Below, in pieces: positions 45,834 to 59,890 of a stretch of DNA of 64,000 nucleotides. Position numbers and translations under genes: made by a program. Positions within the stretch are counted from its first letter, which is position 1. Each line of letters starts with the position of its first letter. The notes beneath the pieces are model-generated. The model had not been told where the DNA came from and made no database searches. It saw only the letters and a program-made list of their open reading frames with translations. The stretch is taken from contig JAOMCN010000008.1 in assembly GCA_028345065.1 (NCBI GenBank), positions 1 through 64,000 of the forward strand. The letters run 5' to 3'. This DNA comes from Rhodospirillales bacterium (lineage in GTDB: Bacteria; Pseudomonadota; Alphaproteobacteria; Rhodospirillales; UBA2165).

Positions 45834-46244
45834 AATTTATTCAGCTTTTTAACTGCCAACAGCCCCTTCACTAAGTACCTTCCAAACACACAAAAACAAC
45901 TTCCGTGACAGACCGGGTCCCTTTTGATTCGGGCTCAAAAAAGTGCTGCCCTTTCCAGTTTAGGATGACCTGAAAGTGTCCGGGTTACTGAGAGGAGGCA
46001 GGTGAACCGTCGGGGTTGGACATATAGAGAAGGGGGGAAACTGAAAAAAGTACCTTGGAAGCGAGGTAATGGGAACTACATCGGTTCCCTTAAATAGGTA
46101 ATTAGGGCAATTAGCGGGAACTACCGTAGTTACACATCTAATATACCATGGGGGGTGGATCAATTTACTTTGTGTTGCAGATTTCTTAAAATTGATTTCT
46201 GCACAGTCGCTCAAATAAATTTTTGAAAACTAGGAATTATAGGT
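45834..46244. other. Intergenic region before the HNH/DGQHR pair
   Basis: 410 bases with no credible gene. It holds two GGGAACTAC repeats with hairpins, listed separately. The rest shows purine-rich stretches but no other structure. Confidence 0.5.
46071..46131. promoter_or_regulatory. Candidate operator: two GGGAACTAC repeats with hairpins
   Basis: GGGAACTAC is present at 46071-46079 and at 46116-46124. The first copy opens an inverted repeat (GGGAAC to GTTCCC at 46084-46089) and the second an almost perfect one (AACTAC c GTAGTT, 46119-46131). They lie about 115-170 bases upstream of the HNH gene, in the same orientation, so they may bind a regulator of that operon. Confidence 0.4.
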
Positions 46245-46982
46245 TTGTCAAAAAACAATGAAAATAGTGTCGATACTTTGAGGCTCATTCTTGAAAAAAC
46301 AGATGCAACCTATGGGTCAGACAACCATCATCTGTCTCAGTTACTCATTTCCATCGCCGAGTCGGTCTTCAATAATGGTCTAATACTGTCGAAGAATGGA
46401 TATACCGGTACACACGGGAATGACCCCAAATTTCGTACTCTCCTGTCCAAATTGTTTTGTGAGGGCGAAATATACAAAGGAGATCATGCACTCGGTAGCA
46501 TTTACACGATTTCGAAGCAGCTAAATGATGCCGTTCACGATAAAACTATAACAAAAGGCGCTGGTAAATATCGAGAACAAGTCATTGAAAAACAGGGTGG
46601 CGCATATTGCGCACTCTGTGGCAGTAAAAGCGACCTTTCCGTTGATCACTTAATCCCAGTTAATAGAGGTGGTAATGAAGAATGGTTGGGTAATATGCAA
46701 TTACTTTGTAAAACCTGCAATTCTTCGAAGTCAAATCACGAGGATGAAATTCTATATAGGCTCATTAAACAAAATACGGATTGTTCCGTCTCTCCCTCCG
46801 CGAAATTTGCCTTCTTGTTGCTGAAATCTATTCGTAAAGAAGAATTAGTGATTGGGAAGTGCGACTGCGGAAAACTGGCCAGTGACGAGGAATTGGAAGT
46901 AGTGCCTCGAGATCCAAATTTAGCCGCAAATTTTTTAAATTTAAAAATCAGATGTGATCACTGCTTTAATAACGAGCGATAG
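46245..46982 (+). CDS. HNH endonuclease
   Basis: A 245-residue protein with a helical N-terminal region, then an HNH domain: C122-x2-C125, D134-H135, N150, and C155-x2-C158 (YCALCG, VDHLIPVN, LGNMQLLCKTCN). A second zinc site follows (C206-x-C208 and C237-x2-C240, in KCDCGK and CDHCFN). The start is TTG, with AGGAATTATAGG before it. It stands 13 bases before the DGQHR gene and so forms a two-gene unit with it. Such HNH proteins nick or cut DNA. Confidence 0.75.
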   Translation: MSKNNENSVDTLRLILEKTDATYGSDNHHLSQLLISIAESVFNNGLILSKNGYTGTHGNDPKFRTLLSKLFCEGEIYKGDHALGSIYTISKQLNDAVHDKTITKGAGKYREQVIEKQGGAYCALCGSKSDLSVDHLIPVNRGGNEEWLGNMQLLCKTCNSSKSNHEDEILYRLIKQNTDCSVSPSAKFAFLLLKSIRKEELVIGKCDCGKLASDEELEVVPRDPNLAANFLNLKIRCDHCFNNER

Positions 46983-46995
46983 GGAGGCCGCCAAA

Positions 46996-48318
46996 ATGGA
47001 AAGTTTCAAACAATGGCACAAATTTTATGGACACCAAGTAATTCAGAACCCGAGCAATCTAAAACTATCAATGTACTGTGGCGCTATAGACGCAAAAATC
47101 CTTCGTGATATTGTTTCTGTGGATAATGCTGTCAAATGGGACTCTGCATCTAAAGTATGGAGAGAGGGAGGTAGAAATAGGACGATTATTGAATCTCATG
47201 TAAACTCAATTGAAGAGTTTTTAGCGTCCGGAAATGCCGAACGCATTATGCCAAATTCTATTGTTTTATCTATCACGGAAACAGCATTTTCATTTAAGGC
47301 TTTCCCACAAATGCCAGAAATTGATAACGTCACGCCTGGCATAATTAAGGTAATGGGACTTTATAAAAGAAGCGCAAACGGTGATATTGAACCCTGCCCA
47401 GAGAAGGACAGAACGGGGTGGGTACTGGACGGGCAACATCGTATAAAAGCGTTTCGACAATGGGCATCCCCAGACCCGTATCCCGTTAACGTCATTATTT
47501 TAAAGCATTGGATGGGTAATGATTACGAAGATGTGATGCGACATCAGACTTATGAGCTTAATATGGGGCGTCCACTATCTGAAGACTTTAAATCGTCTAT
47601 TCGTGAGCAATACAATGAACAAATTGGACACAAAGAGTATAAACGTCAGATAGCACTAAGCTGGATCCGGAGAGAACTTGAAGGCCGTGGTGCTGTTTTT
47701 TCGCAAAATGGGATAGTGGGAGCCAGCAACCTTCGTACTCCATATATTATTACTATGAGTTTTCTTGAAAAACTTATTCAGTTCGCTTTTGAATCCGATA
47801 GCATTCTAAACAATAAATATGTTTTAGAAAAAATGACTAAAAATGAAGCGAAGGAAGTAAGTAAATATCTATTCGATTTTTATGAAGGGGTACGGATCTC
47901 ATTAGGCTTAATCAATCCTCAAACTATAGGCACAATAGGAAGCGAACCAGAAGTGTCCACCGCAAAAGATTACTGGGACATTGCCTCAAAAACTAAACAT
48001 AAACAGCGCCTTCTTCATAATGTTGGATTGAAAGCTGTGACAAAAGGCCTTTTACACAAGGTAATGGCAAATAATCCACAGAACCCAAGCGAAGTTGCGG
48101 AATCTCTTAAACATATGAGGGGTATCCCATGGCATGATCCAGGACTCCAAGCGAAAAAAGATGACTGGGTCAACCCATTGGCAGAAGCACTTTTAAAAAT
48201 GTACGAATCCAAGGGGACAGAGGGAGCAAACAAGAAGTATCAGATTAGAGCTGAAAAGAGGAACAATGCAGGAAATGTAATTGATACCTTCAATTTACAG
48301 GCATTTGGCTGGCAATAG
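46996..48318 (+). CDS. DGQHR-domain protein (DndB-like)
   Basis: A 440-residue protein with GWVLDGQHRIKAF (DGQHR at 145-149), the signature of the DGQHR family, which includes DndB of DNA phosphorothioation and related proteins of DNA-modification islands. The C-terminal two thirds are helical and have no recognised domain. The start at MESFK, with AGGGAGG before it, avoids overlap with the HNH gene. No dndACDE or dpd gene is near, so the pair appears to be independent. It may regulate or guide the HNH nuclease. Confidence 0.72.
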   Translation: MESFKQWHKFYGHQVIQNPSNLKLSMYCGAIDAKILRDIVSVDNAVKWDSASKVWREGGRNRTIIESHVNSIEEFLASGNAERIMPNSIVLSITETAFSFKAFPQMPEIDNVTPGIIKVMGLYKRSANGDIEPCPEKDRTGWVLDGQHRIKAFRQWASPDPYPVNVIILKHWMGNDYEDVMRHQTYELNMGRPLSEDFKSSIREQYNEQIGHKEYKRQIALSWIRRELEGRGAVFSQNGIVGASNLRTPYIITMSFLEKLIQFAFESDSILNNKYVLEKMTKNEAKEVSKYLFDFYEGVRISLGLINPQTIGTIGSEPEVSTAKDYWDIASKTKHKQRLLHNVGLKAVTKGLLHKVMANNPQNPSEVAESLKHMRGIPWHDPGLQAKKDDWVNPLAEALLKMYESKGTEGANKKYQIRAEKRNNAGNVIDTFNLQAFGWQ

Positions 48319-48416
48319 ATAAGATTTCTCAAAGACAGTAATTAAAAAAAATCTCGCGAACATGTTGAAGGCGTTTTTGCATAATGCCTATATTATGTAA
48401 AATTGCCTGTTTGCCT

Positions 48417-48989: not shown

Positions 48990-49300
48990 TTCCGGTACAG
49001 TTGCGCATTCAGGGAGTGTATCACAAATGGGTTATAATTTACAGAGGCGTGGGGCGTGGTTCGTGCACCGTGGCCCATAGTCCACTGTCGCATGACCCCA
49101 TGCATCGTGTGTTCGGAAGCTAACCTTAATTAGATAACGATTTACCTGTTTTGCTATTTAAACCGAAAGCACGACTGCCAAGGTTGCATTTATAGATTAG
49201 GGAAGTTGTCGAACTTTGGTTTACGGTTTGTGAAAAAGACGCTAATCAACGCTACCTAGTTTAGTATTTGCTGCCATACTTGATATGGGAGAACACCAGT
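48990..49300. other. Divergent intergenic region without a gene
   Basis: About 310 bases between the leftward phosphatase gene and the rightward AlbA_2 gene. It should hold both promoters; no hairpin, repeat or small gene of note was found. Confidence 0.45.
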
Positions 49301-50437
49301 ATGGAAGAGGAACAGTTGGGACGCAGTTATTCGGATTTCGAAACATTTAACAAAATAAAATTCGATGAAATCGTGTGTGAAATAAATTCACTTTCACAAT
49401 ATGACCAGAAGCATGACCAGAAGCACAATTTGGAAAAAGAGAATACTGTTTATATTTCCTGGAAAGGATTTGGTCTGTGTTATACAGACTTAGCAAACTT
49501 TGAACCCAATCAACGGCATCGCATCGCCAACCGTTTCGTTAGCGGAACGCATCCAAAAAATTACTTCCAAGTTGTTTTGGATAAAGAAAAAGCGGTTTCG
49601 GGTTATGTGTGTAGTTATCTTAATTCCAGTCATGGTGTTTCAAATTTGGAATCAGTTAGAGATCAAGTGCTAACCGAAAGTGATCTTAGGGCAATAATGC
49701 TGCCATTACCCCCGCTTGAAGTGCAGAGTGAAATTGCGCTCGTTGGTAGAAAACTTGGCGATATTTTGCGAGAAATTGAAGGTTTAGAGACAAATATATC
49801 TCTAAACCCAATTACATCAAAAAATGATCTGAACAAACTAGATTTAGTAGTATCAGCAATTGGTGAATTAAGTGCTTCGGATCGGTTAAAGACACTTATT
49901 CGACAAGATGAGAGTATCTCGTTGGAATTCAAATCTTCGCTTCAAACCCCTTTCCCAGATTATCCGCCCGCTGAGATTGATGAAAAGGGTCAACAAATTT
50001 TTCGAATGGGCAAATTAACATTTAAATCAAAAGCGCAAATTCATAAACACTTGGAAGAAGCATGTCTAAAAACCATAGTTGCTTTCTTAAATTCTCGTGG
50101 AGGGACATTAGTTATTGGTTTAACTAATGATAAAGTTCCAGCGGGAATTGAAAGAGAGAAATTTGAAAATAGTGATAAATTTCTTCTACACCTTACTCAA
50201 ATTATTAACAATCGGATAGGAAATTGGTTTGAGGTAGATTCTGAGATAATAGAGCATGAGGAAAAAAAGATCTGCCTAGTAAAAGTCCAATCCTATATAC
50301 CAAAAAAGGGGCAGACGCCCGCCCACTTAGATAAAAAGACTGTCTACAGACGCAGTGGACCACGTTCTGATCCCATTGAAGGAGAAGAGTTAGCAAGATT
50401 TATTATTGATAGAGCAAGCGATAATGAATCAACATAG
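49301..50437 (+). CDS. HsdS-like / AlbA_2 (Schlafen-type) fusion protein
   Basis: A 378-residue protein with two parts. Residues about 1-165 resemble a type I restriction specificity half (YFQVVLDKEKAVSGYVCSYL, then SDLRAIMLPLPPLEVQSEIA with the IPLPPLEEQ-like end). Residues 200-378 are an AlbA_2/Schlafen AAA-4 domain: SISLEFKSSLQ and LNSRGGTLVIGL. ATG is preceded by GGGAGA. The two halves may bind DNA and ATP or RNA. There is no HsdM or HsdR gene near. A 12-base tandem repeat at the start encodes DQKHDQKH. Confidence 0.65.
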   Translation: MEEEQLGRSYSDFETFNKIKFDEIVCEINSLSQYDQKHDQKHNLEKENTVYISWKGFGLCYTDLANFEPNQRHRIANRFVSGTHPKNYFQVVLDKEKAVSGYVCSYLNSSHGVSNLESVRDQVLTESDLRAIMLPLPPLEVQSEIALVGRKLGDILREIEGLETNISLNPITSKNDLNKLDLVVSAIGELSASDRLKTLIRQDESISLEFKSSLQTPFPDYPPAEIDEKGQQIFRMGKLTFKSKAQIHKHLEEACLKTIVAFLNSRGGTLVIGLTNDKVPAGIEREKFENSDKFLLHLTQIINNRIGNWFEVDSEIIEHEEKKICLVKVQSYIPKKGQTPAHLDKKTVYRRSGPRSDPIEGEELARFIIDRASDNEST

Positions 50438-50671: not shown

Positions 50672-52999
50672 TCAGAAGGGAACCTCTTCCTCGATTGGAA
50701 CTAGGTACTGATCGCTCCAGTCAATATGAGGAACATCGAATGCCCCTTCGAAATTAAAACGCGCACTATCCAGATCACCGAACGCATAGCCATGGGGGCG
50801 CTCACCTTTCTCGCCATTAATGCTGATAACCTGATTACCGGATGGGCGCGAGTGTTCCGCGAATTTTGCAAACAGCTTCCCAACTTCTGCTAGACCCAGT
50901 TTTTTCGATTTGTATCTCTCCATCCTGTACCACCGCTCGTATAGCGCATAAAGAAGCTGGGTTGATCTAAATTCATGCCAATCGGAATGATCATTAAACT
51001 CTTCTGTCTCATAATTCGCGTAAAACGAACCGCGCTGAAGTGCCCAGAATATAAATTTCATCCCGCTGTTAAACATAAATGTTTTTTGTTCACTACGTGC
51101 CGCCGTTTCGGGGATCTGTCTGATATCAAAATCAGAGAGATCGTACTGGAGTAAATATTTGAGAAATCCGGACAATCGGGGACCATCAACGACGTCCCAC
51201 AGGGTGGAAAAGTAGGTTTCGTCATTTCGATGGCTATCGGATACATCGAGAACGACAAACCGCCGGTCATCAATTTCTGCGGGGACCACAAAATCCTCGT
51301 TGGAGGCCATCAGGATTGAGAGGTGGTTCCGTACCATTTTCGGTGGCCGGTATTTGGCTTCGATGGTCAGAAGGCGCTCGGTCACCAGCGACTTCAACTG
51401 GCCTTTGATTTTTGGATCACCCGGAAAAAAAGCCTCATCGGCGAAAAGAAACAGGCAGTCCTCAAGATGACTTTGAAAACGACCAACCAGATGTTCAGAC
51501 TGGCTAATATGTTGGCTGTGTTTGCCGAAAATATTAAGCATTGCCGTAGCCAGAACACCTTTCCCCGTTCCCTGGCGACCTCGAAGGACAAGGACCGTTC
51601 CAGCAAGAATCCCAGGTTTCTGCACGGCCTGGGCTAACCATCCTTTGGTATACTCTGCAAGATCAAGATCACCTGAGGCAATGGTTTGCTCGATATGCTC
51701 TATGAGCGGGGATGGATCCTCATCGGCGACCGAGATCGCAAATCCACGCCATGTGTTGAAATATCCATTTCCGGCCTTTTCGGTCGGATCGCAGACGGTG
51801 CCGAAGGGATATTCCCGGCGCCGGGCGTGTTCAAACCAGACTCTACTCGTTTTTTGATACTTGCCGTTTCTGAGGCAAGTCTTGTTTGCGAATATTTTAT
51901 GGAACTCTTCAGGCGTACAGTATTCCAGATATTCATGCCGGGTCCCAAGGTCAACACGTTGCCGACAAACAAAGACTTTGCCGCTTTCCACAACCACGAA
52001 CCACTCCTGGTTTAGATCCTCTATCATAGAGAGGATATCCTCGTTGTTTTCGGTGCCGCCGGGTTCGGGGCGGGAGTACCCGGCCGCTGCCGACAACTGC
52101 CAGATCACATTGAGAGAGGTTCGTTTGGGCTTGAAACTCGACCAGGTTTTGGCGACATCCTTTTCACCCTGATAATTCGCCGGGGTGGTCCCGTCGGGTC
52201 GGGTCCTGGACCATGTTTGATAAGGATCAAGACCGGCATCACCCAATTCAATCTTGAGTGCGTGTCCGACGGCAATCCAGTTGTCCCGGGGTTCTGGATC
52301 AATATAACTCAATGCCTCTTCTAACTCCTCCCAATCTTGGTCAGACAACACCCGCTTTTTCTGATCTCCGACGGTCTGTCGGGTATTGGCGTTCCGGTTT
52401 TTTCTGACGCCGCCCATGTCCTCGATGAGTCGGGCGAGATCATCTCGAATCATCTGGGCGCCCTCCTCCCTGATAGCGGGTAAATCGGAGCGCCTGATTT
52501 CAAGGGGAGACCTCTCGGGCCAATCATAGGGTTGTTTGGTTTCGGGATGCACGGCAAAGGCCACGAACATCTGGCCCTTTGCGAGTATTTCAACCTTATT
52601 ATTGTCAACCTCACCGATCGTGAACTCGGGCGTGACCAGTTTGCTGAAATTGCCCCCGATTACCTGGAACAGGAACAGGCGCTTGGGTCGCCGACCAAAA
52701 CGGAGCAATGGTTCCCCATCCGAAAGCTCCACAACCCTATTGGCACAAGCCTCTGCAATCTTCGGGTCATAAACATCGATGTCGATACCCGCAACGTGTC
52801 CGCAAACAAGGCCAATACCGCAGTCAGGATCGGTGCCGCACCACTCTTCTACCTGACCAGGGTCAGGGTCGATATGGCCGTTCCAACCGGGCTTCACGCA
52901 TTTCTTGGAACCTGGCAGGATCGGAATGGGCGAATAGCCCATCTTAAGGAGTTCCGGAGCTGCCTCCCGATAGGTGATGGCCTTCATGACAGCCGACAC
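50672..52999 (-). CDS. Primase-polymerase / D5-type helicase
   Basis: A 775-residue replication protein. Residues 1-190 are a bifunctional primase-polymerase domain (GYSPIPILPGSKKCVKPGWN, and GIDIDVYD with catalytic D73 and D75). Residues 220-310 match the PriCT-2 linker (DWEELEEALSYIDPEPRDNW). Residues 450-600 are an SF3-like helicase with Walker A GRQGTGKG (474-481) and Walker B LFLFADEA. It resembles the primases of satellite phages and integrative elements. The downstream inverted repeat is next to its stop. It overlaps the small gene upstream by 16 bases. Confidence 0.83.
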   Translation of the reverse strand: MSAVMKAITYREAAPELLKMGYSPIPILPGSKKCVKPGWNGHIDPDPGQVEEWCGTDPDCGIGLVCGHVAGIDIDVYDPKIAEACANRVVELSDGEPLLRFGRRPKRLFLFQVIGGNFSKLVTPEFTIGEVDNNKVEILAKGQMFVAFAVHPETKQPYDWPERSPLEIRRSDLPAIREEGAQMIRDDLARLIEDMGGVRKNRNANTRQTVGDQKKRVLSDQDWEELEEALSYIDPEPRDNWIAVGHALKIELGDAGLDPYQTWSRTRPDGTTPANYQGEKDVAKTWSSFKPKRTSLNVIWQLSAAAGYSRPEPGGTENNEDILSMIEDLNQEWFVVVESGKVFVCRQRVDLGTRHEYLEYCTPEEFHKIFANKTCLRNGKYQKTSRVWFEHARRREYPFGTVCDPTEKAGNGYFNTWRGFAISVADEDPSPLIEHIEQTIASGDLDLAEYTKGWLAQAVQKPGILAGTVLVLRGRQGTGKGVLATAMLNIFGKHSQHISQSEHLVGRFQSHLEDCLFLFADEAFFPGDPKIKGQLKSLVTERLLTIEAKYRPPKMVRNHLSILMASNEDFVVPAEIDDRRFVVLDVSDSHRNDETYFSTLWDVVDGPRLSGFLKYLLQYDLSDFDIRQIPETAARSEQKTFMFNSGMKFIFWALQRGSFYANYETEEFNDHSDWHEFRSTQLLYALYERWYRMERYKSKKLGLAEVGKLFAKFAEHSRPSGNQVISINGEKGERPHGYAFGDLDSARFNFEGAFDVPHIDWSDQYLVPIEEEVPF

Positions 53000-53478
53000 G
53001 AGCGCCGCAACTCGGACCTGTTCCTCCTGGCCAGTTGGTCATAAAACTCACAAAAACCGCCCGTTATGGTGGCAAGTTGTTTGCCCGGGCTATCAAATTT
53101 CCAGTCATTGGTCGGCAATATGCGGAAGCAGGGCGTTTCTTCGGGAAGAACATGTTCCCACTCTTCAAGATGTGGCGGTTGGGTCTGAATTTCCACGGTG
53201 CGCCAGTTCATCCCCATCATATCGATACCGAAACGTATCAACGGATCATATCCCCCCACCCAAACAACAATTGCGTCTGCCCTTGAGAGAACGCGACTGA
53301 TCCCTGCAAAGGCACTAGGGCCCATCGAGGATGATAAGGGGTCGTCTCCAATGGTGATGAGTGCCGCATCCCTATGGTTAAAGGTTGGATAAGCACGTGC
53401 GTTGGGAAGTATCGTTGAATACCTTAGGAGGTGGTGGCCACACAGACACGGTTTTTGATTGAAAGGCGGTTTTCTCAT
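52984..53478 (-). CDS. Hypothetical protein upstream of the primase
   Basis: A 164-residue protein with a possible zinc site (KPCLCGHHLL) near the start and an acidic, aromatic C-terminal half. GGGAGACCACA precedes the ATG of MRKPPF. No family is recognised. It overlaps the AlpA-like gene by four bases and the primase by 16, so it is probably part of the replication operon. Confidence 0.5.
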   Translation of the reverse strand: MRKPPFNQKPCLCGHHLLRYSTILPNARAYPTFNHRDAALITIGDDPLSSSMGPSAFAGISRVLSRADAIVVWVGGYDPLIRFGIDMMGMNWRTVEIQTQPPHLEEWEHVLPEETPCFRILPTNDWKFDSPGKQLATITGGFCEFYDQLARRNRSELRRSCRLS

Positions 53479-53741
53479 TGTGGTCTCCCTTCCCTGCATT
53501 TTAATGTTCTTGAACTTGGGGTTAGTTCCGTTTGGTATAGGTGAGAAGCTACTCCGCCCTCACCTCCCCTCTGCTCCACCAGCCAATCCAGGACCTGGGT
53601 TCGGGGCCACCCGATCCGGCGCTCACCCAGCCTGACGGGTTCGGGAAATTTGCGCTTGGTGATCCAGCGCCTCAGGGTGGTCTCCGACAGCGTCGTTAAG
53701 TCGAGCACTTCCTTGGTCGTTAGAATTTGTAAATCATCCAT
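53475..53741 (-). CDS. AlpA-like helix-turn-helix regulator
   Basis: An 88-residue MerR/AlpA-type HTH protein: LTTKEVLDLTTLSETTLRRW and ITKRKFPEPVRLGERRIGW are almost the standard AlpA sequence. GAGGAG precedes the ATG of MDDLQ. In P4-like satellites AlpA controls the integrase or excision. It is the first gene of the leftward replication operon. Confidence 0.78.
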   Translation of the reverse strand: MDDLQILTTKEVLDLTTLSETTLRRWITKRKFPEPVRLGERRIGWPRTQVLDWLVEQRGGEGGVASHLYQTELTPSSRTLKCREGRPQ

Positions 53742-54460
53742 CAATACTTTCTCCTCAAAAAACAAAAAAAGCCGTCCCCGGAAACGGGCCGACTTTCTTC
53801 TTTCTGGACAAACACGCCATCAAATGGCGCTATGACAGAGTTAGTTTACCACCTCCATGACTGACCGGGAACCCTCATAAGAGGTCAAGACGTGATATCC
53901 CATAAGTTGTCCCAGTAAACACCCTCCCGGATCCCTGGGTTGCCACGCGTTGGTTTGTTATAAGACTTCAATGCGGTTAGTTAGCTGGAACGTAAGACGG
54001 GCAAAGTCTAGTATCTTAAGGCTTCACTGAAGTTTATATATAATATCTTTACAATATATAATATATAGTTTATATATGTTTACTTATAATATATATTCTA
54101 CAGACAGATAGGTGACCAATGGAATTTATAGATAAAGTAATATGTGCCTATAGGAAAATGATGCTAATTACCTGGATTATAGTAATATACATAGTGGTAA
54201 CCTCGATATGAGTAAGATAGGTGCCTTATATTTCAACTGCTTGAATTGGCAGTCAGAGAATATAAAAATCATAGTGTTATGATACTCAATCTTAACTATC
54301 GGCACACATCTATTTGTATCAGCATTGCGATGCAGTTACAGACTTTAACAGACTAACATGTTGATCACTTCCAGCAGGTTTTAAACCCATAATGAGGGTG
54401 ATTCTATGAGGAGGCAGAACGATATGCACTTGGCAATAACGATATTAGGAGGTCAGTAAA
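53742..54460. other. AT-rich region with candidate origin, between the two halves of the island
   Basis: About 700 bases between the leftward replication operon and the rightward genes. A strongly AT-rich tract (54030-54110, TATATATAATATCTTTACAA and ATATATAGTTTATATATG) may be an unwinding element of an origin. Two short frames occur: a 30-residue peptide, listed separately, and a 17-codon frame (54406-54459) that ends one base before the next start and includes its AGGAGG. Confidence 0.45.
54119..54211 (+). CDS. Possible small hydrophobic membrane peptide
   Basis: A 30-codon frame: MEFIDKVICAYRKMMLITWI followed by IVIYIVVTSI. A charged start precedes about 18 hydrophobic residues, the shape of type I toxin or small membrane proteins. 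TAGGTGACCA precedes the ATG. It is in the AT-rich region, where chance frames are common, so it is only a candidate. Confidence 0.3.
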   Translation: MEFIDKVICAYRKMMLITWIIVIYIVVTSI

Positions 54461-55935: not shown

Positions 55936-56712
55936 ATGCTGGGAGCGATTGCCGGTGATGTGATCGGAAGCCGTTTTGAGTTCAACAATCATCGAAGCCG
56001 GGATTTTGAGTTATTTCTTGGTGATAGCTCTTTTTTTACCGATGACACAGCCTTGACCGTCGCAACTGCGAAATGGTTGCTTGGGAATGACGACCTTGCC
56101 GCGGTGATTATTGAGTTTTTTAATCGCTATCCGCACTTATCGTATGGTGGTAGTTTTTACAATTGGGCAAGAAGTGGGGGTGGTGAACCGTACAACAGTT
56201 ATGGAAATGGATCTGCCATGCGGGTTAGCCCTGTTGCTTATGCTGCCCGTGACGAGCAGGACTGTTTAGCACTTGCCGAGGAAAGTGCTGCAGTCACTCA
56301 TAGTCATCCGGAAGGAATTAAGGGTGCACAGGCAACGGCTTGGGCGACTTGGACAGCATTACAGGGACAGTCTGCTGATATTATCAGAACTGAAATAGAG
56401 AAGCGTTTTAAATATGATCTTCACCGGGACTGGTTCTCGGGTTATGAATTTGATGTGACTTGCCAGGGAACGGTGCCTCCAGCATTGATCTGCGCCCTGG
56501 GTGCGACGGATTATGAAGACTTTATAAGACAAGCTGTATCAATCGGGGGCGATACGGATACGATTTGTGCTATAGGCGGAGCAGTAGCGGCAGCACTATA
56601 TGAAATTCCAGACACAATTATATCCGAAACAAAGGCGCGACTGGATACCTTCCTCCTTGACATAATCGACCAATTTGAAAAACGATTTATCAGGAGGGTA
56701 GCTGATTTGTAA
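55936..56712 (+). CDS. ADP-ribosylglycohydrolase (DraG-like)
   Basis: A 258-residue enzyme with GAIAGDVIGSRFEF at its start, the metal-binding T35-D36-D37-T38 in FTDDTALT and GGDTDTICAIGG near the end, all hallmarks of DraG-family hydrolases. It removes ADP-ribose from proteins or nucleic acids. A matching ADP-ribosyltransferase is not visible. It may act as an immunity or reset factor for a toxin. Confidence 0.88.
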   Translation: MLGAIAGDVIGSRFEFNNHRSRDFELFLGDSSFFTDDTALTVATAKWLLGNDDLAAVIIEFFNRYPHLSYGGSFYNWARSGGGEPYNSYGNGSAMRVSPVAYAARDEQDCLALAEESAAVTHSHPEGIKGAQATAWATWTALQGQSADIIRTEIEKRFKYDLHRDWFSGYEFDVTCQGTVPPALICALGATDYEDFIRQAVSIGGDTDTICAIGGAVAAALYEIPDTIISETKARLDTFLLDIIDQFEKRFIRRVADL

Positions 56713-57386: not shown

Positions 57387-58106
57387 ATGACTGCCAAGCA
57401 ACAATACAACGCATTTACGAGCGTTTTGAATGCAGCTTTAGGACCTTGCCCCTCTTTGTTAAATGGCGCGTGTCGCGATTTTGTGACCTGGGATCCGCAC
57501 CGGGGACAGGTGCCACGAGGCTGGTGGGGTGGACTTGGATCAACAGAAGAAATTGAACTGGTCATAGTTCTAGGAGAGCCATCCCTGAATACCCAGCCCG
57601 GTGAAAGCTATGGAGAATTTCCTACGGTGGCAGAGGTTTCTGGCTTCATAAATGGGTTATACCAAAATGTATTTCCGACAAAACCGCTAGGTACGGAGCT
57701 CCCAAGTGAAAGGGGAAGCGTTCACTACAATGTTATGCTTCTTCTCCAAATGTGTTTTGGCGAGGATCATTCTTTAGATGAATTAGCAAAACGGACATGG
57801 GTAACACAGGCCGTGCTATGCAGCGTGAAAAAAGGCACACTGCGGAGACACCACACCTCGGTACGCCAAACCTGTTGGCGAAAATATCTCAGGATGCAAT
57901 TAGATCTGGTGCCTGACGCCTTTATTATCCCCATGGGAAACAAGGCGAGAGACGCTGTCTCTTTTGTGGCACCCTCGAGACGCACACCATCCATAAACGT
58001 CATGGCGGCCGCAAGACCCTCGGCCAGTTCGCGCAGGAAGGATTCTCTTCAATCGTGGGAACATGCGGCAAGAGAATTTCGTCTCTGGAAAAATGCGGGT
58101 AGTTAG
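57387..58106 (+). CDS. Uracil-DNA-glycosylase-superfamily-like protein
   Basis: A 239-residue protein. VLGEPSLN (61-68) resembles UDG motif A (GEAPG-type), YNVMLLLQMCFG is a typical helix, and the C-terminal AARPSA (208-213) sits where UDGs have the HPSP loop, with R in place of H. IPMGNKARDAV between them matches the LG.A..A helix. If so it recognises a base lesion or modified base in DNA. I regard it as a divergent member, possibly without glycosylase activity. Confidence 0.5.
   Translation: MTAKQQYNAFTSVLNAALGPCPSLLNGACRDFVTWDPHRGQVPRGWWGGLGSTEEIELVIVLGEPSLNTQPGESYGEFPTVAEVSGFINGLYQNVFPTKPLGTELPSERGSVHYNVMLLLQMCFGEDHSLDELAKRTWVTQAVLCSVKKGTLRRHHTSVRQTCWRKYLRMQLDLVPDAFIIPMGNKARDAVSFVAPSRRTPSINVMAAARPSASSRRKDSLQSWEHAAREFRLWKNAGS

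Positions 58107-59814: not shown

Positions 59815-59890
<76 letters not shown>

Follow-up and report, generated by a model that had tools for sequence, protein, structure and literature searches.

An HNH nuclease gene paired with a DGQHR gene is associated with Dpd and Dnd loci and may encode a two-protein restriction module

Adjacent genes for an HNH nuclease and a DGQHR protein were analyzed in 64,000 nucleotides of DNA from a Rhodospirillales bacterium (this whole stretch is called the window here). Gene pairs of this kind are strongly associated with Dpd and Dnd loci, occurring within Dpd islands across several phyla and, on two plasmids, next to dnd genes. The interpretation that we favor, with slightly better than even confidence, is that the pair is a two-protein restriction module coupled to unusual DNA marks, a counterpart of the fused proteins SspE and DndI. 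Restriction by a sensor-NTPase and an HNH nuclease linked to DNA marks is a known kind of system, of which the two-gene DGQHR-HNH form would be a variant. None of the papers found by a literature search, as far as their accessible text goes, names a DGQHR-HNH pair (most subscription papers lay outside the scope of the search).

The HNH nuclease gene lies at positions 46245 to 46982 of the forward strand and encodes 245 amino acids from a TTG start that is uncertain. The DGQHR (DndB/DpdB-like) gene runs on the same strand from an ATG at 46996 to a stop at 48318 (440 amino acids). The 13 bases between them (46983 to 46995) contain GGAGG, the ribosome-binding sequence of the DGQHR gene, 8 bases 5′ of its ATG. 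A first-pass annotation of this DNA had described two such genes 13 bases apart; both open reading frames (ORFs) were confirmed, their products passed the Pfam HNH and DndB cutoffs, and the genes are real. It had also given the pair its own candidate operator upstream. Two copies of GGGAACTAC (at 46071 and 46116, 45 bases apart) are indeed present inside an imperfect inverted repeat (46071 to 46124), and the window contains no further copy. Two copies also arose in 4 of 100 shuffles, however, which leaves a weak candidate operator 5′ of the pair. A terminator-like hairpin lies downstream on the forward strand (48369 to 48389); the hairpin scan found 2 against 3.5 expected from shuffles, and the hairpin alone is no evidence.

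The window carries other genes around the pair. Immediately 3′ of it (49268 to 50437), one predicted protein combines a weak Type I specificity (Methylase_S-like) half with a Schlafen AlbA_2 domain. A Prim-Pol/DUF5906 primase-helicase follows (50672 to 53765), and a tRNA-Lys region (59815 to 59890) has an AlpA-type regulator nearby. The presence of the regulator and the primase-helicase near tRNA-Lys suggests a P4-like element; no integrase was noticed. A tRNA-Lys attachment repeat was considered and rejected, as the tRNA end has no second copy in the window. Genes for an ADP-ribosylglycohydrolase (55936 to 56712; 120.9 bits) and, below threshold, a uracil-DNA-glycosylase-like protein (57387 to 58106) were also seen.

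The HNH protein belongs to Pfam family HNH (PF01844; 39.7 bits, gathering cutoff 21.4) and consists of a helical N-terminal part, an HNH core at approximately residues 120 to 165, and a C-terminal second zinc ribbon. The core residues are C122, C125, H135, N150, C155, C158, and N159. The "dual zinc" description given earlier agrees with two four-cysteine sets in the window sequence, one around the HNH motif (C122, C125, C155, and C158) and the other at the C terminus (C206, C208, C237, and C240). Loss of the HNH cysteines in homologues, which would have spoken against the first-pass annotation, did not occur: the four cysteines of the HNH motif, together with H135 and N159, were invariant in 10 of 10 aligned HNH sequences, while the second ribbon was missing from 2 of the 10 (loci L095 and L130). 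The structural model of the HNH protein is weak (mean pLDDT, 54.2), and the nearest solved structure to it was the Gme HNH nicking endonuclease, followed by EcoKMcrA. Searching the whole protein in 60 genomes recovered, except for its own gene, HNH cores only (present in 31 of the 60), as did a sequence-based search of solved structures. Identity with Septu (PtuAB), a system defined by a PtuB HNH protein and a PtuA ATPase, was rejected, because PtuB models matched the HNH core alone (30.4 bits, residues 112 to 169) and the sole PADLOC match of the DGQHR partner was DpdB.

The DGQHR protein falls within the DndB superfamily (PF14072; 34.9 bits, gathering cutoff 29.1) and just below the cutoff of NCBIfam TIGR03187 (55.4 versus 58.85 bits), with the motif itself present as D145-G146-Q147-H148-R149. 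The closest named family was DpdB (64.7 bits with NCBIfam NF041060 and 59.1 bits with the PADLOC DpdB model), and the score is far below the 300-bit equivalog cutoff of NF041060, placing the protein outside that family; PADLOC DndB models gave no match to it at an E value of ≤1. A core at approximately residues 21 to 192 is followed by a helical C-terminal half, and much of this N-terminal core was modeled at a pLDDT of 80 to 93 (mean for the protein, 72.7). The 20 best VIA rows for the model were ParB, Noc, PadC, KorB, and sulfiredoxin (Z, 5.2 to 7.3; 89 to 99 residues aligned; root mean square deviation, 2.8 to 4.0), with SspE lower in the list (Z, 3.5); every Z was below 8, which is moderate, and the rows were mutually consistent. 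They also agree with the published view, in the accessible part of PMC4619093, that the DGQHR domain is homologous to DUF262 and to the ParB/sulfiredoxin (Srx) fold. With moderate confidence, the model thus points to a ParB/sulfiredoxin-like core, so that the protein would share the fold and the D-G-Q-x-R motif of the GmrSD/SspE/DndI family. The domains of that family, DUF262 and DUF1524, were absent from the Pfam hits of both proteins up to an E value of 1. Foldseek with the DGQHR model gave no match at an E value of ≤0.001, and a sequence-based search of solved structures gave no true match.

To find relatives, 84,980 species genomes were scanned for patterns taken from a DpdB-like alignment, and 80 loci were kept. 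By far the best of these was in Mycobacterium asiaticum DSM 44297, where the DGQHR protein is 66% identical to that of the window and an HNH gene lies directly upstream (39% identity over 150 residues; 8-base gene overlap). A frameshift near L058:7016-7050, possibly a sequencing error, interrupts the DGQHR gene of M. asiaticum. A whole-genome search placed dpdA on the same contig approximately 25 kb from the pair, and the intervening DNA holds dpdE, dpdF, dpdH, dpdJ, and dpdD (by PADLOC scores), starting approximately 3 kb from the pair; dpdA was also present in all 79 of the other loci kept by the scan. This window-type lineage has two members only. No further relative was found by single-protein pattern scans of genome contigs and viral contigs, by tblastn searches of plasmids and phages with the window DGQHR protein (1e-5), by tblastn searches of plasmids with the M. 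asiaticum form, or with a two-row profile (A3) in viral contigs. The same profile recovered only its own genome among 398 genomes of the window phylum, only the M. asiaticum genome among 148 of that genus, and the M. asiaticum genome plus a weak match in genome G831 among 296 of that phylum.

The window represents one contig (C95) in a 2.22-Mb metagenome-assembled genome (completeness, 67%; contamination, 0.53%). Another contig, C29, carries genes for DpdC, DpdB, DpdA, a second DpdB, a QueC-like protein, DpdE, DpdH, DpdK, and DpdD, as scored with PADLOC models, with the QueC identity coming from reading of the sequence. At approximately 27,700 to 51,600 of C29 (loci L055 and L149), the Dpd system is apparently complete, and DpdA is flanked by two DpdB genes. 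Tetranucleotide usage in stretches of C29 correlated with that of the window at 0.75 to 0.85, and the two halves of the window correlated at 0.88; this fits an origin of C29 and C95 in one organism but is not proof of it, and the two contigs are linked only by metagenome binning. Both members of the window-type lineage therefore live in Dpd-positive genomes, with the M. asiaticum pair at an island edge. The annotation had placed neither dnd nor dpd genes nearby and had suggested that the pair is free-standing. For dpd, its first statement stands, as tblastn with nine Dpd/Que proteins of the same genome found none in the 64 kb. The wider claim of independence from dnd and dpd is not supported, since the genome has a Dpd system, the nearest relative adjoins a Dpd island, and all other HNH-DGQHR pairs found sit in Dpd-positive genomes or beside dnd; the pair is free-standing locally only.

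Scanning the loci for HNH genes revealed more pairs beside dpd operons (loci L069, L095, L105, L109, L115, L123, and L130). At L061 (genome G1243), the HNH gene adjoins only a weak partial DGQHR frame (E value, 0.0022), which was counted as unproven. At L123 (genome G1245), the DGQHR partner of the HNH gene (L123:702-1937) lacks the DGQHR motif and is otherwise conserved. The HNH proteins of these pairs all have the helical-HNH layout, and part of them have the second ribbon. Plasmids were found through matches to two pair-type DGQHR proteins and were read without requiring modification genes. On a Pseudomonas aeruginosa plasmid, HNH-DGQHR directly adjoins dndE-D-C-B, and on an Agrobacterium larrymoorei plasmid, DGQHR-HNH is approximately 4 kb from dndE-A. 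An Agrobacterium vitis plasmid has an HNH gene, an IS5 element, and a DGQHR gene between dpdD and a queC-dpdA operon, and in Bradyrhizobium sp. 41S5, DGQHR-HNH is approximately 5 kb from dpdB-dpdA-dpdB. The unnamed partner proteins of the plasmid pairs contain the HNH motif. A match on an Azospirillum plasmid was rejected as a pair, being DpdB only. DGQHR types on Acinetobacter, Leptospira, and Providencia plasmids (3) had no HNH partner, and no dnd or dpd gene was annotated in the stretch shown; Providencia plasmids made up 15 of the 20 records of the last of these searches, and one of them was read. On it, a DGQHR gene and a non-HNH partner lie between umuD and umuC (L164:11923-13793). The DNA of the P. 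aeruginosa pair had no match in Escherichia coli genomes.

A nine-row profile of pair-type DGQHR proteins was run genome-wide for 50 of the 80 loci. In these 50 dpd-positive genomes, picked to take in every locus in which an HNH gene had been seen, so that the pair frequency there is inflated, 11 matches exceeded 160 bits, and the next best scored 114. An HNH gene touched all 11, and 10 of the 11 lay on the contig of dpdA or dpdB within approximately 25 kb, in genomes of 5 to 9 Mb; one of two pairs in genome G1261 was on a short contig without dpd genes. The 11 comprised 5 query rows, 2 matches seen before, and 4 new ones (G1261 twice, G1283, and G1246), and all 4 of the new matches carry HNH. 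Two evenly drawn genome sets were also used, with 190 genomes from the window class and 159 from the phylum of M. asiaticum, counting both centers. Among the 347 without the centers, a pair-type DGQHR gene was present in one, the dpd-positive G831. For pairs found after the profile was built, HNH genes were present in 5 of 5 versus 0 of 20 lower-scoring DpdB-like loci fetched as controls; no P value is given for this contrast because the rows share ancestry. In a class sample of 385 genomes, no DGQHR gene (TIGR03187) other than that of the window had an HNH neighbor within the short flanks covered. The pairs show either gene order, with the two genes in contact and on the same strand in every case. 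These counts are subject to ascertainment, as inspection of dpd loci was the source of most pairs. The first-pass annotation had asked whether the pair is conserved as a unit in islands and had named rare co-occurrence as the result that would contradict it; the pair recurs in Dpd islands and beside dnd.

Island order was determined by tblastn with the Dpd proteins of four genomes. In Methylomonas LW13 and G831, the pair forms the last two genes after dpdJ-K-D on the same strand (in G831, as HNH-DGQHR directly after dpdK-dpdD), and in A. vitis, a single gene on the opposite strand separates it from the preceding dpdD. Most pair-bearing Dpd islands keep matches to dpdD-K, so the pair is an add-on there. 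G1246 (42-kb contig) and Bradyrhizobium (41 kb) had no dpdD-K match beside the writers, which makes the pair one of few candidate nucleases in those stretches; that of Bradyrhizobium also encodes a helicase and a PD-(D/E)XK protein. Extracts of a genome-mining preprint report HNH PF01844 genes in dpd islands that lack the restriction operon, as well as 801 extra dpdB copies (PMC11888242).

In a tree of 55 DGQHR proteins, 14 pair-type rows, including both Dnd-linked ones, formed one clade (support, 100/98), and L115, G1246, and the window-M. asiaticum pair grouped with DpdBs (97/90). Well-supported branches force at least 2 changes, in agreement with an earlier tree; that tree had warned of long branches, some of which were left out of the 55-protein tree, and the branch of the window protein is very long. 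Two or three DGQHR lineages thus appear to have gained, or to have retained, an HNH partner; a single gain followed by losses is also possible. Some loci had further unusual arrangements. At L069:4777-7152 (a Verrucomicrobiales metagenome-assembled genome) and L071:7069-9360 (Uabimicrobium), a DpdB-like DGQHR motif and DpdA similarity share one open frame, an apparent DpdA-DpdB gene fusion in each. At L053 (MT835580.1, labeled Bacteriophage sp.), reading of the sequence shows relaxase-like and conjugation-peptidase-like frames that adjoin a dpdC-B-A-B-queE-D-C operon, and the stretch resembles an integrative conjugative element more than a phage.

SspE and DndI are among the known systems closest to the pair. 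These also unite a ParB/Srx-type NTPase carrying D-G-Q-x-R with an HNH nuclease and are encoded with a DNA-modification system, but each is one fused protein with DUF262 and DUF1524 that responds to a phosphorothioate mark, whereas the pair has two genes, a DndB-type DGQHR protein, and an HNH PF01844 protein and is mostly linked to Dpd. The Type IV systems GrwAB, GmrSD, and BrxU share the logic of a sensor and an HNH nuclease. GrwAB, which restricts 7-deazaguanine phages and needs two genes according to the accessible text of PMC12137116, differs in that GrwA is itself a DUF262-DUF1524 fusion; these Type IV systems target foreign modified DNA. DpdB is alignable with the window DGQHR protein over most of its length and occupies a neighboring tree branch, but the window protein has a long separate branch and an HNH partner instead of DpdA. 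DndB shares its Pfam domain with the window protein, which, unlike DndB, is encoded outside any dndCDE operon. Pairs share islands with the dpdD-dpdK restriction operon, directly behind dpdD in two genomes, whereas the window copy is on a different contig from the Dpd genes of its genome. PADLOC lacks a dedicated model of the pair; its existing models recognize an HNH core and, weakly, DpdB. In excerpts, a Dnd survey describes nucleases near dnd in which the HNH protein is of the wHTH-SAD-HNH type (PMC10853773), and a ParB-fold survey describes ParB-CTPase domains fused to HNH PF01844 (PMC12704722).

In the favored interpretation, the DGQHR protein is a divergent relative of DpdB that would bind and hydrolyze nucleotide and would read a host mark on DNA, mostly the Dpd 7-deazaguanine and sometimes the Dnd phosphorothioate. 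The state of the mark would gate the HNH partner, which would nick or cut DNA without it; in the window cell, the marks would be written in trans by the Dpd system on C29. We infer physical interaction, NTPase and nuclease activities, the direction of discrimination, and a role of the pair in phage defense. Sparing of marked DNA is likelier than attack on it because the pairs live with mark writers. A precedent, as described in part of PMC11662687, is provided by DndI and SspE, each of which joins a ParB-like DGQQR NTPase domain to an HNH domain in one polypeptide. The ATPase of DndI is stimulated by phosphorothioate, ATP hydrolysis releases DndI from self-DNA, and unmarked phage DNA is nicked. 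GrwAB indicates that proteins of this sort can also respond to 7-deazaguanine, in its case as the target (PMC12137116). GmrSD was also taken as a precedent (extracts of PMC4619093). The earlier idea of a compact antiphage system is plausible.

The reverse direction, in which the pair would act as a Type IV system on foreign DNA bearing a phage's 7-deazaguanine or other mark and so serve as a complementary weapon beside Dpd or Dnd, is rather unlikely. GrwAB, with ParB/Srx-type DUF262 and HNH domains, restricts Queuovirinae phages that have 7-deazaguanine DNA, and its escapers carry dpdA changes according to figure legends (PMC12137116); GmrSD and BrxU act as modification-dependent enzymes in the excerpted text of PMC12707154 and PMC4619093. 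However, the pairs lie beside Dpd writers, where a cutter of 7-deazaguanine DNA would hit its own host unless it distinguished derivatives, and they also lie beside Dnd. An abortive or phage-triggered nuclease independent of DNA modification, close to the free-standing pair first proposed, seems improbable. The window copy, in 64 kb without dpd and on an island with an AlpA regulator and a P4-type primase-helicase near tRNA-Lys, would suit such a nuclease, but Dpd is present both in its own genome and in that of its closest relative, none of the pairs found came from a genome in which the absence of Dpd as well as Dnd had been shown, and no HNH gene accompanied the sampled DGQHR genes of genomes without demonstrated Dpd.

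It is still less probable that the DGQHR protein is a DndB-like, ATP-modulated repressor of a modification operon with the HNH protein as an accessory. DndB is an ATP-dependent repressor of dnd in the accessible parts of PMC10853773 and PMC12704722, and the DGQHR protein scores above the DndB Pfam cutoff, but in two or three DGQHR lineages the HNH gene directly overlaps or almost touches its partner, which points to a nuclease complex, and the family nearest to the protein, DpdB, is itself tied to insertion of the mark (extracts of PMC12839542). A homing-type HNH gene that settled beside a DGQHR gene by chance or as a selfish neighbor is scarcely credible: HNH cores are common, as their presence in 31 of 60 genomes indicates, but both gene orders occur with the genes always touching on one strand, and chance adjacency was rejected on the HNH counts (11 of 11 pair-type matches and 5 of 5 later-found pairs versus 0 of 20 controls).

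As a two-protein restriction module, the pair would probably serve as previously overlooked scissors against invader DNA that lacks the mark. More tentatively, it may represent a mark-agnostic cassette, in which the DGQHR fold, otherwise that of writer or regulator proteins (DpdB and DndB), would have been adopted at least 2 times as the reader component of nucleases made of two proteins and able to work with chemically unrelated marks, 7-deazaguanine (Dpd) and phosphorothioate (Dnd), with the window lineage having left the island to use marks in trans. The restriction activity that accompanies the Dpd mark is described as not further explored in the accessible text of a 2025 review (PMC12707154). 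A two-gene pair that stands last in the dpd restriction operon of two genomes is a far simpler target than the eight-gene dpdD-K, and pairs from a single DGQHR clade that accompany Dpd writers as well as Dnd writers would make it possible to test whether the reader recognizes the chemical mark or is blocked by altered DNA of any kind.
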